Source: Devosia aquimaris
GTDB taxonomy: Bacteria > Pseudomonadota > Alphaproteobacteria > Rhizobiales > Devosiaceae
Length of the DNA stretch: 64,000 nucleotides
Assembly: GCF_020169335.1 (NCBI RefSeq)
Contig: NZ_JAIEZN010000001.1
Location: 1,257,426-1,321,425 of the forward strand
Reading direction: 5' to 3'
In this document: positions 23,209 through 28,709 of the stretch, piece after piece
How positions within the stretch are numbered: position 1 is the stretch's first letter
How the letters are laid out: every line of letters starts with the position of its first letter
Program-made: the position numbers and the translations under genes
The notes under the pieces: model-generated
What the model saw: the letters and a program-made list of their open reading frames with translations, nothing else
Told to the model about the DNA's origin: nothing
Database searches by the model: none

Positions 23209-23856
23209 CTAGATTGCCAGCATGGATTTGACGACCGGCACGAGCCCCTCGCCGATCGCGCGTGTATTGGCGGCGTCCAGGTGGACACCGTCCTGCGGGT
23301 CCGCCTTGGCCACGGTCGCGGCATCAAAGAACCCGGTGTTCCACTCCTGCGCCCGTCGGGCATAGTGGGCGGCAAACTGGCTGGACTGTTCCAGCCCATG
23401 CGCCAGCCCGCCGAAATGGCCCATCATGTCGGCATTGTCGCTGTCACAGAGCAAAGGCGGCGCGACAAGGACGATCTCGGGCGCCGGTTCATTGCGTCCG
23501 GCGGCATGGCCACGGATGATCTGCACCAGCCGGCGCATGCCGAACGAGGCCTCGAGCGCCGAGCCACAGATGGCCGGCTTGAGGTCATTGGTGCCCAGCA
23601 TGATGATGACCATGTCGAGCGGCCCGTGGCTTTCGAGCAGCGTCGGCAGGATGCGCGCGCCATTGCGGTCGGCATTGGCATACCAGTCGTCCGACACCGT
23701 CGTGCGACCGCCAAGACCCTCGGCAATCACCCGCGCCTTGCCGCCCAGGCCCTTTTCCAGCGCCGTCGGCCAGCGATCCTCATAGGCATGGCGCGCCCCA
23801 CCCGACGGATTGGCTCCGAAGGTGAGGCTGTCGCCGTAAGCGAGAATGGTCTTCAT
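23209..23856 (-). CDS. SGNH/GDSL-type hydrolase (arylesterase-like)
   Basis: A 215-residue esterase-fold protein. The nucleophile is Ser10 in GDSL (8-11), block III is GTND (88-91), and the Asp-His pair is in DGVHLD (189-194), so the active site looks complete. No signal peptide is seen; it should be cytoplasmic. It sits between pdhC (13 bases upstream) and lpd (30 bases downstream) on the same strand, an odd place for an esterase. Natural substrate unknown. Confidence 0.9.
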   Translation of the reverse strand: MKTILAYGDSLTFGANPSGGARHAYEDRWPTALEKGLGGKARVIAEGLGGRTTVSDDWYANADRNGARILPTLLESHGPLDMVIIMLGTNDLKPAICGSALEASFGMRRLVQIIRGHAAGRNEPAPEIVLVAPPLLCDSDNADMMGHFGGLAHGLEQSSQFAAHYARRAQEWNTGFFDAATVAKADPQDGVHLDAANTRAIGEGLVPVVKSMLAI

Positions 23857-23869
23857 GGCGCCCTGCCCC

Positions 23870-25270
23870 TTAGGCCAGCATCATCACGGGATTTTCGATC
23901 AGGCCCTTGAACACACCCAGCAGCTCTGCGCCGAGCGCACCATCGACGGCACGGTGATCGCAGCTCAGCGTCACGGTCATGAACTGGCCGATCTTGATCT
24001 GCCCGTTCTCGGGATAGACGCGCTCTTCGCCCGCACCCACGGCCAGGATCGTGCCATGCGGCGGGTTGATGACGGCGGCAAAGTGCTTGATGCCGAACAT
24101 GCCCAGATTGCTGACCGAGGAGGCGCCGCCCTGATATTCATGCGGGGCGAGCTTCTTGGACTTGGCGCGTGTGGCCAGATCCTTCACCTCGTCGGAAATC
24201 TCGCGCAGGCTCTTGGTGTCACAGCTCTTGACCACCGGCGTGAACAGCCCACCAGGCACCGAGACGGCCACGGCCACGTCGCTGCGCTTGTGATAGAGAA
24301 TGCTGTCACCAGCCCAGGTGGCATTGGCCAGCGGCACCCGCTGCAGCGCCACCGCCCAGGCCTTCATGATGAAATCATTGACCGAGAGCTTGTAGGCCGG
24401 CTTGCCATCCTTGCCCTTGGGCGCAGACGCATTGATCTGCTCGCGGGCGGCCATCAGCGCATCGATCTGGCAATCGAGTGTCAGGTAGAAATGCGGCACC
24501 GTCTGCTTGGACTCGGTCAGGCGCGCGGCCACCACCTTGCGCATGCCGTCATTGGGCACGAGCTCGTAGCTGCCTTCTTCGAACAGCGCCAGAACCTGGG
24601 CCTTGCTCATGCCACCAGCCATGGCAGCACCAGCGGGCGCAGCCGAAGCACCGGCGGCAGGGGCAGACGCCTTGAGCGGCGTCTTGCCGGACTTGGCGGC
24701 TTCCACGTCGGCCTTGATCACGCGGCCCTTGGGGCCGGAGCCGGAAATGGCGGCGACATCAATGCCGGCGTCCTTGGCCATACGGCGTGCCAGTGGCGAA
24801 GCGAATACCTTGTCACCGCCCGACTTGGCCGGCGCAGGTGCCGCAGCCGGTGCGCTCGAACCCGAATTGCTGTTGCTGGCGGGCGCGGGGTCCGCCTTTG
24901 CCGTGGGCGCGGTTTGCGTTGCCGCATTGGCTTCCTTGACGGCCCCGGCGTCAGCCTTGGGCGCTTCCGCCTTTGGCGCCTCGGCTTTCGCCTCAGCCTT
25001 GGGTGCGGACATGTCGCCGGCGCTCTCGCCATCCTGCAGCAGGACCGCGATCACGGCATTGACCTTCACATTCTCGGTGCCTTCGGCAACCACGATCTTG
25101 CCGATCTTGCCTTCGTCCACGGCCTCGACTTCCATCGTGGCCTTGTCGGTCTCGATCTCGGCAATCACGTCACCGGAGGAGACGCTGTCGCCTTCCTTGA
25201 CGTGCCATTTGGCGAGCTTGCCCTCTTCCATCGTCGGAGAGAGCGCCGGCATGGTGATATCGATTGGCAT
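23870..25270 (-). CDS. pdhC: Dihydrolipoamide acetyltransferase (E2 of pyruvate dehydrogenase)
   Basis: A 466-residue E2 with one lipoyl domain at residues 1-78 (Lys43 in [11 protein letters not shown] carries lipoate), an Ala/Pro-rich linker, a peripheral subunit-binding domain ([19 protein letters not shown]) and the catalytic core ending with DHRAVDG (438-444, His439). The linker around residues 85-150 is made of [10 protein letters not shown]-like repeats. The start lies 11 bases after the pdhB stop. Confidence 0.96.
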
Positions 25271-25281
25271 CCCGGTTCTCC

Positions 25282-26664
25282 TTACGAGCGATAGGTCACG
25301 GCATTGACCGCCGCGATCACTTCATCAACGTTGGGCAGCGCCAGCTTTTCAAGGTTGGCGGCATAGGGCATGGGCACATCCTTGCCGGTCACGCGCATCA
25401 CCGGCGCATCGAGATAGTCGAAGGCCTGTTCCATCACGCGGGCGGACAGTTCCGAACCGATGCCGCCCTGCGGCCAGCCCTCTTCCACCGTCACCAGGCG
25501 CCCGGTCTTCTTGACCGAGGCGATCACGGTGTCGCTGTCGAGCGGGCGCAGCGTACGCAGGTCGATCAGTTCCACGTCAACGCCGGCAGCAACCAGCTTC
25601 TCGGTAGCCTGGGTGGCGTAGCGCATACCCATCGAGAACGACACGATGGTGACATCAGCGCCCTTGCGCGCAATGCGCGCCTTGCCGATCGGCAGCACGA
25701 AATCGTCCACCTTGGGAACAAGGCCGGTCGAGCCATAGAGAATTTCGTTCTCGAGGAACACAACCGGATTGGGCGAGCGGATGGCAGCCTTGAGCAGGCC
25801 CTTGGCGTCGGCTGCGCTATAGGGCGCGATGACGGTCAGGCCCGGCACATGGCTGTACCATGCCGAATAGTCCTGGCTGTGCTGGGCACCCACGCGGGCG
25901 GCCGCGCCATTGGGGCCGCGGAACACCATGGGCGCCGTAACCTGGCCACCGGACATATAGAGCTGCTTGGCCGCCGAGTTGATGATCTGGTCGATCGCCT
26001 GCATGGCAAAGTTCCATGTCATGAACTCCACGATCGGCTTGAGGCCGGCAAAGGCCGCGCCAACGGCCAGGCCGGCAAAGCCATGCTCGGTGATCGGCGT
26101 ATCAATGATGCGCTCGGGGCCGAATTCCTGCAGCAGGTTCTGGGTGATCTTGTAGGCGCCCTGATATTCGGCAACCTCCTCGCCCATCACGAAGACGTCC
26201 TTGTCGCGGCGCAGTTCCTCGGCCATGGCCTCGTTCAGCGCCTGGCGCACGGTCATCTCGACCATTTCGACGCCCTCAGGCAGGTCCGGATCGTCCTGCG
26301 CGACAAACTTGGGCGCCTCGGCAGCCGCCGGCGCCTTGGCCTCGGCGGGCGCGCTGGCAGCAGCAGCAGGCGCCGCGCTCTCGCTGGCTTCAGCCGGCTG
26401 CGGCTTGCTCTCGCCGGCGCTTTCGCCTTCGGCCAGCACCAGGGCGATGGGTGTGTTGACCTTCACCCCCTCGGTGCCTTCCTCGACCAGGATTTCCTTG
26501 ACCACGCCGCTATCGACCGATTCCACTTCCATGGTGGCCTTGTCGGTCTCGATCTCGGCCAGCACATCGCCGGGCGACACGGTGTCCCCGACCTTGACCA
26601 GCCATTTGCTCAGCTTGCCCTCTTCCATCGTGGGCGACAGCGCGGGCATCAGGATTTGGGGCAT
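25282..26664 (-). CDS. pdhB: Pyruvate dehydrogenase E1 beta subunit with N-terminal lipoyl domain
   Basis: A 460-residue protein. Residues 1 to about 78 form a lipoyl domain (Lys42 in [11 protein letters not shown]), followed by an Ala-rich linker and the E1 beta pyrimidine and C-terminal domains ([43 protein letters not shown]). The extra lipoyl domain is known in several alphaproteobacteria. The frame is open to 26769, but GGAG seven bases before ATG at 26664, and a start nearly identical to that of pdhC, settle the choice. Confidence 0.95.
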
Positions 26665-26665
26665 A

Positions 26666-27067
26666 TCAGCTCTCCAGAAGTGTAGCGCCGGGCATGCTGG
26701 CCACGCGGCGAAGGTCAGTATTGAAGGCAATCTTGTTGGCATCGGCCAGTGGCATGAGGATGACGCCATCCAGGCTTGCGACGGGCTGCTCGCCCTCGCT
26801 CTGGCTGACCATCCAGCCGCTGAGCATCACGCCCAGCAGCACCAGCACCACAAAGGCAATCGTGGCGCGCTTGTAGATCTGCAGGTTTGTCGCCGCCGCC
26901 GGTCCGGCCTTGGCATCGAGCTTGGCGAACTTCCACCAGCCCAGCACCATGAACGGACCGACTTCGGCACTGGCCGGCGCCAGTCGGATGACCGCCCGCG
27001 CCTGCGTGATCGCGACGACCAGCGACAGGATGGCAAAGACGGCAATCACGCCCAGCAGCACGGTCAT
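26666..27067 (-). CDS. Unknown two-helix membrane protein inside the PDH operon
   Basis: A 133-residue protein that I do not recognise. It has an N-terminal transmembrane helix (about residues 2-21), a polar segment with a [13 protein letters not shown] patch, a second helix (about 68-88) and a C-terminal soluble tail of about 45 residues. Its stop lies one base from the pdhB start and its own start is 11 bases after pdhA, so it is expressed with the E1 subunits. It might place the complex at the membrane or be unrelated; nothing in the sequence decides. Confidence 0.8.
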
Positions 27068-27078
27068 GGACAGGCCCC

Positions 27079-28098
27079 TCAGGCGCTGATGGTGATGTCG
27101 GTCCAGAGCTCTTTGGGATCGGGCTCGGCATCATTGGTGGCAAAGTCAGCCGCCTCGGTGACGATGGCCCGGATCTCGTTCTCGATCGCCTTGAGCGATT
27201 CCTCGCTCTGGGCACCCGATTCCAGCAGCCGCGCCTTGACCTGCTCGATCGGGTCGCGCTCCTGGCGATACTTGGTCACTTCGTCCTTGGAGCGATACTT
27301 CGCCGGGTCGGACATCGAGTGGCCGCGATAGCGATAGGTCAGCATCTCGAGGATATAGGGGCCCTTGCCCGAGCGGGCATGCTCGATGGCGCGCTGGGCA
27401 GCATCATAGACCATGCGCACGTCCATGCCGTCGACCTGCTCGCCCGGAATATCGAACGAGGCACCGCGCATGGAGAAATCGGTCGTCGCGGCAGCGCGCT
27501 CGATCGAGGTGCCCATGGCATATTTGTTGTTTTCGATGATGAACACGACCGGCAGCTTCCACAGCTTGGCCATGTTGAAGCTCTCGTAGACCTGGCCCTG
27601 GTTGGCCGCGCCGTCGCCGAAATAGGCCAGGCTCACCGAGCCGTCGCCCTTGTACTTCGAAGCGAAGGCTAGCCCGGTGCCCAGCGAAACCTGCGCACCC
27701 ACGATGCCGTTGCCGCCATAGAAGCGGTGTTCATTGGAGAACATGTGCATCGAGCCGCCCTTGCCGCGGCTGAGCCCGCCCTGGCGACCGGTCAGCTCGG
27801 CCATCACACCCTTGGGATCCAGGCCCATCACCAGCATGTGGCCGTGGTCACGATAGCCGGTGATCTGGGCATCCTTGCCCTTCTCGGAGGCCATGGTGAC
27901 ACCCGTCACCACCGCTTCCTGGCCGATATAGAGGTGGCAGAAGCCGCCGATCAGGCCCATGCCATACATCTGGCCAGCCTTTTCTTCGAAACGCCGGATC
28001 AGCAGCATTTCGCGATAGGCTTCGAGCTCCTGCTCAGGGCTGAACTGGGGGATATTGGATTGCGTCTTGGCCTTGGTGGCCACAGCCTTACGCGCCAT
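27079..28098 (-). CDS. pdhA: Pyruvate dehydrogenase E1 alpha subunit
   Basis: Thiamine-diphosphate-dependent decarboxylase subunit (339 residues). The TPP/magnesium motif runs from GDGAANQGQVYESF to IENNKYAMGTS, about 30 residues, and the phosphorylation-loop-like region YRYRGHSMSDPAKYRS is present. Start is ATG at 28098 with GGAG eight bases upstream; the frame continues to 28149 but that part is probably leader. First gene of the pdhA-unknown-pdhB-pdhC-SGNH-lpd run, with a promoter-like sequence at 28158-28187. Confidence 0.95.
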   Translation of the reverse strand: MARKAVATKAKTQSNIPQFSPEQELEAYREMLLIRRFEEKAGQMYGMGLIGGFCHLYIGQEAVVTGVTMASEKGKDAQITGYRDHGHMLVMGLDPKGVMAELTGRQGGLSRGKGGSMHMFSNEHRFYGGNGIVGAQVSLGTGLAFASKYKGDGSVSLAYFGDGAANQGQVYESFNMAKLWKLPVVFIIENNKYAMGTSIERAAATTDFSMRGASFDIPGEQVDGMDVRMVYDAAQRAIEHARSGKGPYILEMLTYRYRGHSMSDPAKYRSKDEVTKYRQERDPIEQVKARLLESGAQSEESLKAIENEIRAIVTEAADFATNDAEPDPKELWTDITISA

Positions 28099-28157
28099 AG
28101 AGAACGCTCCGCATCGGAATGGAATTGCCGCTAGTGCCAACATGGCCACATATCGAC

Positions 28158-28187
28158 ACTATAGCGCAAGCAAACGCAGCAAAGCAA
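28158..28187 (-). promoter_or_regulatory. Candidate sigma-70-type promoter of the PDH operon
   Basis: On the minus strand TTGCTT (28187-28182) and TATAGT (28163-28158) are separated by 18 bases, a good match to -35 and -10 boxes. The expected start of transcription near 28150 leaves a 5' leader of about 50 bases before pdhA. Confidence 0.5.
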
Positions 28188-28213
28188 TGCCACAGCTCAG
28201 CGCAAAATACGCG

Positions 28214-28612
28214 CTAGAGAATTGAATCTGCAGCGATAATTGCGTTTAACTGATCTGCGGCTAATTCGTTGAATTTACCGGAAAGTGGTTGACCGGTACT
28301 CGGATCGACCATGACCAGCATGTCGTCGGCATTGGCCATGTTGAGCAGCGCCCTGGCACGCTCGGTGACGATATCCGGATCGAGCCGCCGCGGGTCCATC
28401 AGCGTCGCACGGTGGCGATAGGCATCGATCTCGGCCTGCAGCGCCGCCGACTTGGCCTTGAGCTGGTCGATATCCAGCATGATCTGCGTCCGACTCTCGA
28501 TGCCAAACTGTCCACCGATGGCGGAAAAGCCCAGATAGCCCTGGAAACCCAGCAGGGCAACGGTCAGAGCCAGGGGACGCCAGAGCGCAGGTCGTTTGAG
28601 ACGGGTGGGCAT
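28214..28612 (-). CDS. Septum formation initiator (FtsB/DivIC-like) protein
   Basis: A 132-residue bitopic membrane protein with a short basic N-terminus, one transmembrane helix near residues 13-31, then a coiled coil (LDIDQLKAKSAALQAEIDAYRHR) and a polar tail with RLDPDIVTERARALLNMA. This is the DivIC/FtsB layout of divisome proteins, which form a complex with FtsL and FtsQ. Its position just upstream of the PDH operon is common in Hyphomicrobiales. Confidence 0.88.
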   Translation of the reverse strand: MPTRLKRPALWRPLALTVALLGFQGYLGFSAIGGQFGIESRTQIMLDIDQLKAKSAALQAEIDAYRHRATLMDPRRLDPDIVTERARALLNMANADDMLVMVDPSTGQPLSGKFNELAADQLNAIIAADSIL

Positions 28613-28709
28613 GGAGCAACCGGATTAGGATAGCCAACTATGCCATTGCACTGCTTAACGCGGCGTTGCGATCCCGGCTGGCGCCGCCTGTTCGATCACG
28701 CTGTCATCG

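Follow-up and report, generated by a model that had tools for sequence, protein, structure and literature searches.

A membrane protein gene carried between the genes for the two pyruvate dehydrogenase E1 subunits in Devosia and other Hyphomicrobiales

The window analyzed here, a 64,000-nucleotide stretch from the 3.81-Mb assembly of Devosia aquimaris, carries a pyruvate dehydrogenase operon on its minus strand. The identities of pdhA (E1 alpha; 27079..28098, with its start inferred at MARKAV), pdhB (E1 beta with an N-terminal lipoyl domain; 25282..26664) and pdhC (E2 acetyltransferase; 23870..25270) are certain, with pdhA scoring 500 bits against TIGR03182 (cut-off 394) and pdhB 811 bits against NF008854 (cut-off 454). 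A gene for a DivIC-like septum formation initiator (28214..28612, minus strand) is the upstream neighbor of pdhA, as it is in most Devosia loci examined, and a GDSL-family hydrolase gene (23209-23856, minus strand) is found between pdhC and lpd. The feature of interest is an ATG-initiated open reading frame on the same strand (26666..27067, here called X), which encodes a 133-residue two-helix membrane protein and was described in a first-pass annotation as wedged between pdhA and pdhB. Its frame, strand and spacing were all reproduced: in the window sequence X is separated by 11 bp from pdhA, whose stop ends at 27079, and by 1 bp from pdhB, whose ATG is at 26664. The accompanying statement that pdhA and pdhB are normally adjacent also holds, as HMM matches to the two genes lie <200 bp apart in 112 of 119 Hyphomicrobiales genomes outside the Devosia family that carry both on one contig and strand (partial pdhB matches left out). 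The closest fetched relative of the window locus, that of Devosia sp. FKR38 (G115), encodes an X protein that is 74% identical and a PdhA that is 99% identical.

With respect to the coding status of X, its core is under purifying selection and it is a real protein gene. Residues 1-88 have a median dN/dS of 0.18, the remainder of the protein (from about residue 89) one of 0.39 and pdhA one of 0.06, such that the core value is three times that of pdhA. Moreover, values below 1 were obtained for the core in 64/64 pairs and for the C-terminal extension in 58/64; these pairs (dS 0.15-0.6) overlap and are thus not independent. That X might be a chance or mis-called reading frame fits with its lack of a Pfam or NCBIfam match, yet 56 of 70 Devosia junctions keep the frame and its residues, and homologues occur in two further families. 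Together with the uniform dN/dS of the core, which rules it out, this renders such an origin negligibly probable.

In terms of architecture, the core of X is predicted to be a helical hairpin. AlphaFold2 places a first helix at residues 2-29 (26981..27064, minus strand) and a second at residues 56-90 (26798..26902, minus strand), the latter containing a conserved Y-K-R-A motif. The two long helices expected from the initial description are predicted, with low confidence in the window protein (mean pLDDT 60.8, low-confidence tail); the model of an Aestuariivirga homologue has the same first helix and the same hairpin at a mean pLDDT of 77.5. The intervening loop (residues 30-55; 26903..26980, minus strand) carries a conserved G-x-W-x-F ... 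G pattern in alignments A1, A2 and A4. The net charge of residues 23-66 has a median of +3 over 52 ORFs (range 0 to +6), and since net positive loops face the cytoplasm under the positive-inside rule, the loop is probably cytoplasmic. The cytoplasm is also where pyruvate dehydrogenase is located. The remainder of the protein is a C-terminal extension with little predicted structure (residues 91-133; 26669..26797, minus strand), which is present in most Devosia and short or missing in homologues from other genera. Two hydrophobic helices and a G-x-W-x-F ... Y-x-R-A loop pattern characterize the family that occupies this slot, with the pattern far less pronounced in f19, the third family described below, and in two individual loci (L072 and L092).

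Comparison with known families and structures returned little. The window protein matched no family in Pfam (E<=1), NCBIfam (run on this protein only) or PHROG, no PDB sequence at E<=1, and, when its hairpin model was searched with Foldseek, nothing at E<=0.001 (best 3.3). Scattered matches among the 33 members of alignment A7 (best E 0.0013 in Pfam and 0.005 in PHROG) fell in many unrelated families and were taken as hydrophobic-helix noise. The titles and abstract beginnings of the literature matches listed make no mention of a pdh operon of bacteria that encodes a membrane protein, and as far as these parts of those matches go the family is undescribed.

The distribution of X within Devosia is broad and incomplete. 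An initial search of 101 genomes matched X in 47 of the 61 that belong to the same genus (own included) and in 0/40 from other families of the order. At the level of individual loci, 71 of 75 Devosia junctions were fetched (G017, G037, G040 and G041 were left out for want of a full-length pdhB match) and 70 of these were resolved, the junction of G048 stopping at a contig edge. X was present in 56 of the 70, where presence denotes an open core of >=85 codons (55 have pdhA on the same contig; the other, L014, is on a contig that begins inside X); frame and spacing recur in these same 56. It was broken in one and absent from 13. The broken copy (L016) belongs to a same-genus genome (G053) of 2.0 Mb that is 98% complete and is perhaps that of a reduced symbiont. 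Three Devosia genomes (L019, L021 and L053) have an extra 129-residue ORF between pdhA and X, and the one that was scanned has no Pfam match. In another Devosia locus (L070) X is shortened to 86 residues and is followed by a 284-residue alpha/beta hydrolase (PF12695) and then pdhB.

At the 13 junctions that lack the gene, pdhA and pdhB are still side by side, 63-99 bp apart. When each gap, minus its last 14 nt, was compared with the 3' end of intact X, ten of the 13 matched better than all 100 shuffles; L044 was borderline, L033 and L039 showed nothing, and 0/8 control gaps from other genera beat all shuffles. At least ten of these absences are consequently losses. On a quickly built pdhA tree, parsimony gave nine changes within the genus and 14 in all, counts that do not separate gain from loss. 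Six of the loci without the gene have one common junction sequence and yet are scattered on that tree, which suggests fewer events than parsimony does, and we therefore trust as a lower bound only the four junction types distinguished by eye. In one locus of this group (L041, G025), the assembled pdhB loses its reading frame about 110 residues from the start. No column of a PdhA alignment splits carriers of X from non-carriers. A tendency toward longer terminal pdhA branches in Devosia lacking the gene (median 0.090 versus 0.058, Mann-Whitney p 0.0015) was set aside, being uncorrected for phylogeny or sampling. Because X is absent from 13 and broken in one of 70 resolved Devosia junctions, with pdhA and pdhB remaining side by side, it is not required for the complex; it is dispensable, and an indispensable role is excluded. 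The first-pass annotation had asked whether the gene order is conserved in Devosia-like genomes and had named absence from close relatives, or another location in them, without effect as what would count against its proposal. Conservation is indeed seen at 56 of 70 junctions, and the adverse observation applies in part, at the other 14.

Beyond Devosia, X belongs to a Hyphomicrobiales family that resides mostly in the pdhA-pdhB slot. Within other genera of the Devosia family, 39 junctions were fetched from 61 genomes, and seven contain a shorter ORF of 93-111 residues that was counted as homologous whereas 32 do not; one of the seven (L092) was missed by the profile search and counted on an hhalign value of 86.7%. 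That profile search found no second match better than E 0.02 in any genome. A 90-residue hydrophobic slot ORF in two genomes of that family (L079 and L091; gap 671-674 bp) was rejected as X at an hhalign value of 0.3%. A sample of 397 genomes from the order yielded one strong match outside the Devosia family (G373, E 5.7e-18), and it too occupies the pdhA-pdhB slot. Six marginal matches (E 0.0018-0.0087) were not counted, one of which (G233) is in the slot and broken. At most 13 candidates were scored per genome in this and the class-level search, so the order search may have missed weak members. A 99-residue ORF with two transmembrane helices in the slot of G210 was not assigned to the family (hhalign 10.5% and 1.7%). 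Slot occupants unrelated to X in other families include a 165-residue DUF1877 protein (L132) and a 228-residue ORF without a Pfam match (L127).

In the family to which G373 belongs, matches were found in 8 of 69 genomes, 8/8 of them in the slot, with no match by profile search in the other 61. Two of these matches have identical counterparts in Taklimakanibacter lacteus and Aestuariivirga sp. YIM B02566, which makes this second family probably Aestuariivirgaceae. A third family (f19) gave matches in 7 of 12 genomes, 7/7 in the slot with one broken, and no profile match in the remaining five. Since the query profile of that search already contained one f19 sequence, homology was tested apart, with hhalign values of 97.3% against A4 and 94.5% against profile A2; a single f19 sequence by itself gave 55.1% against A2. 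Every confident member in the three families thus sits between pdhA and pdhB. A plasmid collection gave no match to X at E<=0.01.

The same placement emerged from a scan of 84,980 species genomes with a motif taken from X only. In all 34 loci recovered, pdhB is the next gene downstream; 32 show the full pdhA-X-pdhB arrangement and two are cut by contig ends. Most are titled Devosia, with Taklimakanibacter and Aestuariivirga among them. The scan pattern demands G-x-W-x-F ... G ... YKRA and matched 55 of the 156 loci collected with and without X, so family members lacking the pattern are missed, and the invariance of G, W, F and YKRA in alignments A6, A7 and A9 arises by construction.

A possible distant relative was encountered outside this setting. 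The class-level search of 385 genomes detected, at E 8.5e-7, a two-helix membrane protein beside glmM/thiD in a family (f118) of another alphaproteobacterial order, with an hhalign probability of 93.6% against A4 but of 20.8% against A11, the profile of the third family. Of 61 genomes from the f118 family, 6 have relatives of this protein, and their 3.2-kb loci contain no pdhA or pdhB. Among these loci (L155 and L200-L205), the gene is beside glmM/thiD in L155 and L200 and near thiD in L201. Another match from the class search (G929, E 2.3e-4) was dropped, as by our reading it falls within a longer TolQ/ExbB-like frame.

The 3' end of X contains a second conserved feature, at the nucleotide level. 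Its last ~45 nt read approximately TTCGCCGYGTGGC-N(3-8)-GCCCGGCG, followed by 10-13 nt, GGAGAG and the pdhB ATG. In the window, the conserved block is TTCGCCGCGTGGCCAGCATGCCCGGCG (26686..26712, minus strand), which lies upstream of pdhB and could form an 8-bp hairpin, and the probable pdhB Shine-Dalgarno sequence (CTGGAGAG; 26670..26677, minus strand) falls inside the last codons of X. The elements GGC, GCCCGGC and GGAGAG are invariant in 52/52 distinct junction sequences, whereas the first part of the block is less fixed (CGCCG in 42/52). These 52 rows derive from 69 genus junctions with both genes, of which eight were left out as identical duplicates and nine were excluded beforehand because the block was missing or partial or the junction was different (L024, L026, L033, L039, L041, L044, L046, L070 and L071). 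The invariant parts are also kept in 9 of the 13 Devosia loci that lack the gene, where the frame is lost. Codon usage shows a corresponding bias: the proline codon of the tail Pro-Gly is CCC in 49/49 ORFs that have this dipeptide (3/52 do not), compared with 27-31% elsewhere and 6/23 at the conserved loop proline of the same ORF set; in the ORF body, CCG accounts for 54% and CCC for 27% of proline codons. The ORFs are related, so these counts are not independent.

At the possible hairpin, pairing is retained in 96.2% of cells as compared with 30.5-44.3% when the pattern is slid, and the exact pattern occurs twice in the organism's own genome. None of the eight pairs changed on both sides (0/8), folding energy differed from that of shuffles by less than one standard deviation in 6/7 sequences (the seventh had a z of -2.1), and Rfam gave no match at E<=0.1 across 26000-28700 of the window. 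A structured cis-regulatory RNA was not accepted as proven, covariation being absent and folding energy ordinary, and for this reason our claim is limited to a conserved block in which a hairpin is possible. The block and the Shine-Dalgarno sequence together (26669-26712, minus strand) form a candidate leader element for pdhB. Both the block and the ribosome-binding site of pdhB overlap the 3' end of X in most Devosia, and a second, separate role at the DNA level is, as judged from sequence, the better supported part of our interpretation.

With respect to function, we tentatively favor, at somewhat short of an even chance, X as an optional inner-membrane accessory of E1 that acts as a tether or modulator, a reading closely rivalled by one in which X is a passenger of the operon. 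As an accessory, X would be the Devosia member of a family of helical-hairpin inner-membrane proteins of roughly 90-100 residues, which has probably occupied the pdhA-pdhB slot since a time before the split of at least three Hyphomicrobiales families. Expression from one operon would produce X in step with E1-alpha and E1-beta, and its conserved, basic and aromatic cytoplasmic loop would touch E1 from the inner membrane and in this way either keep some of the pyruvate dehydrogenase complex close to the membrane or modulate it. The age, the topology, the contact with E1 and the tethering or tuning are all inferred, and the anchoring or regulating role first proposed for X is accordingly described as possible. 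A link to E1 is favored by the slot position over three families, the selection on the core, the basic loop and the hairpin model of the Aestuariivirga homologue, and specifically by the 34 motif-scan loci and the 15/15 second- and third-family matches in the slot (one broken). Weighing against the accessory role, X is absent or broken in 14/70 Devosia and absent from 32/39 junctions in other genera of the family, and it is unmatched in 61/69 and 5/12 genomes of the second and third families, an absence from many relatives which indicates that E1 works without it. Also counting against this role are the threefold higher dN/dS of the core relative to pdhA, the possible relative beside glmM/thiD in another order and the lack of any PdhA column that splits carriers from non-carriers. 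Hence, of the proposed connection to the complex, the positional association stands, with homologues of three families in the slot and 34/34 motif loci directly upstream of pdhB, while any requirement for X does not.

These same absences favor the passenger reading when combined with the fact that conserved operons hold their member genes together by default. X would then be a small protein of the envelope whose task has nothing to do with pyruvate dehydrogenase and which uses the expression of the pdh operon, staying in place only through a single entry and vertical inheritance. We regard this as a serious contender that nonetheless falls appreciably below an even chance. It accounts well for the loss of X while pdhA and pdhB remain side by side, for the slot also taking unrelated genes (the 129-residue ORF of three Devosia, the alpha/beta hydrolase, the DUF1877 protein and the 228-residue ORF) and for a possible relative in another order away from pdh, but if X worked independently its gene might be expected to have moved elsewhere now and then, and all confident homologues in three families are in the slot. 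A further reading, in which X is mainly a cis element whose translation, together with the 3' block, sets the ratio of E1-alpha to E1-beta while the protein matters little, appears improbable. The location of the pdhB Shine-Dalgarno sequence in the last codons of X, the uniform CCC of the tail proline and the invariance of GGC, GCCCGGC and GGAGAG, including at 9/13 loci without the gene, are consistent with it. However, a core dN/dS of 0.18 and the conserved helices demand a protein, homologues of the two other families have no extension and end 15-30 bp before pdhB, the block is unseen or partial in the nine junctions left out of the alignment, and the possible hairpin has no covariation and an ordinary energy. 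The accessory role and the leader element could also hold jointly, with the hairpin family tethering E1 to the inner membrane and being made in step with it, and with the 3' end of X doubling in Devosia as a leader element of pdhB; this composite is unlikely as a whole.

The pyruvate dehydrogenase complex of bacteria is generally regarded as soluble. The retention of a membrane protein between the E1 genes in three families, together with its loss from many relatives, is in effect a natural experiment: species that have X can be set against species that lack it to see whether the enzyme differs in membrane association, activity or regulation. The position of X between the two E1 genes in these families hints at a link to the enzyme for a gene that is not essential and whose loss is seen in many relatives. 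Quite apart from the protein, the conserved stretch over the start of pdhB may help to control the balance between the E1 subunits, an idea that can be tested directly.

Relative to known systems, the Devosia window shares with the alphaproteobacterial pdh operon (divIC-pdhA-pdhB-pdhC-lpd; TIGR03182, NF008854) its genes, their order and the N-terminal lipoyl domain of pdhB, and differs in adding a membrane-protein gene between pdhA and pdhB. The f118 protein resembles X in its two-helix layout and in a K-R-A-F motif before helix 2, and is unlike it in lying outside any pdh operon. Cytochrome b561 has haem-ligating histidines in its helices, and weak matches to Ni_hydr_CYTB (PF01292) were seen in 7/33 A7 members (best E 0.0032), as expected of hydrophobic helices; membership of X in this group was rejected, because the 133-residue window protein has zero histidine and so no histidine haem ligands. 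As for what X might work like, a parallel is OAD_gamma (PF04277), the small membrane subunit of oxaloacetate decarboxylase, which is encoded with its enzyme and serves the membrane part of that enzyme. X was rejected as a member of this family, with only 2/33 A7 members touching the model (best E 0.0071) and with two predicted helices in X, and the likeness is that of a small membrane protein encoded together with a metabolic enzyme.
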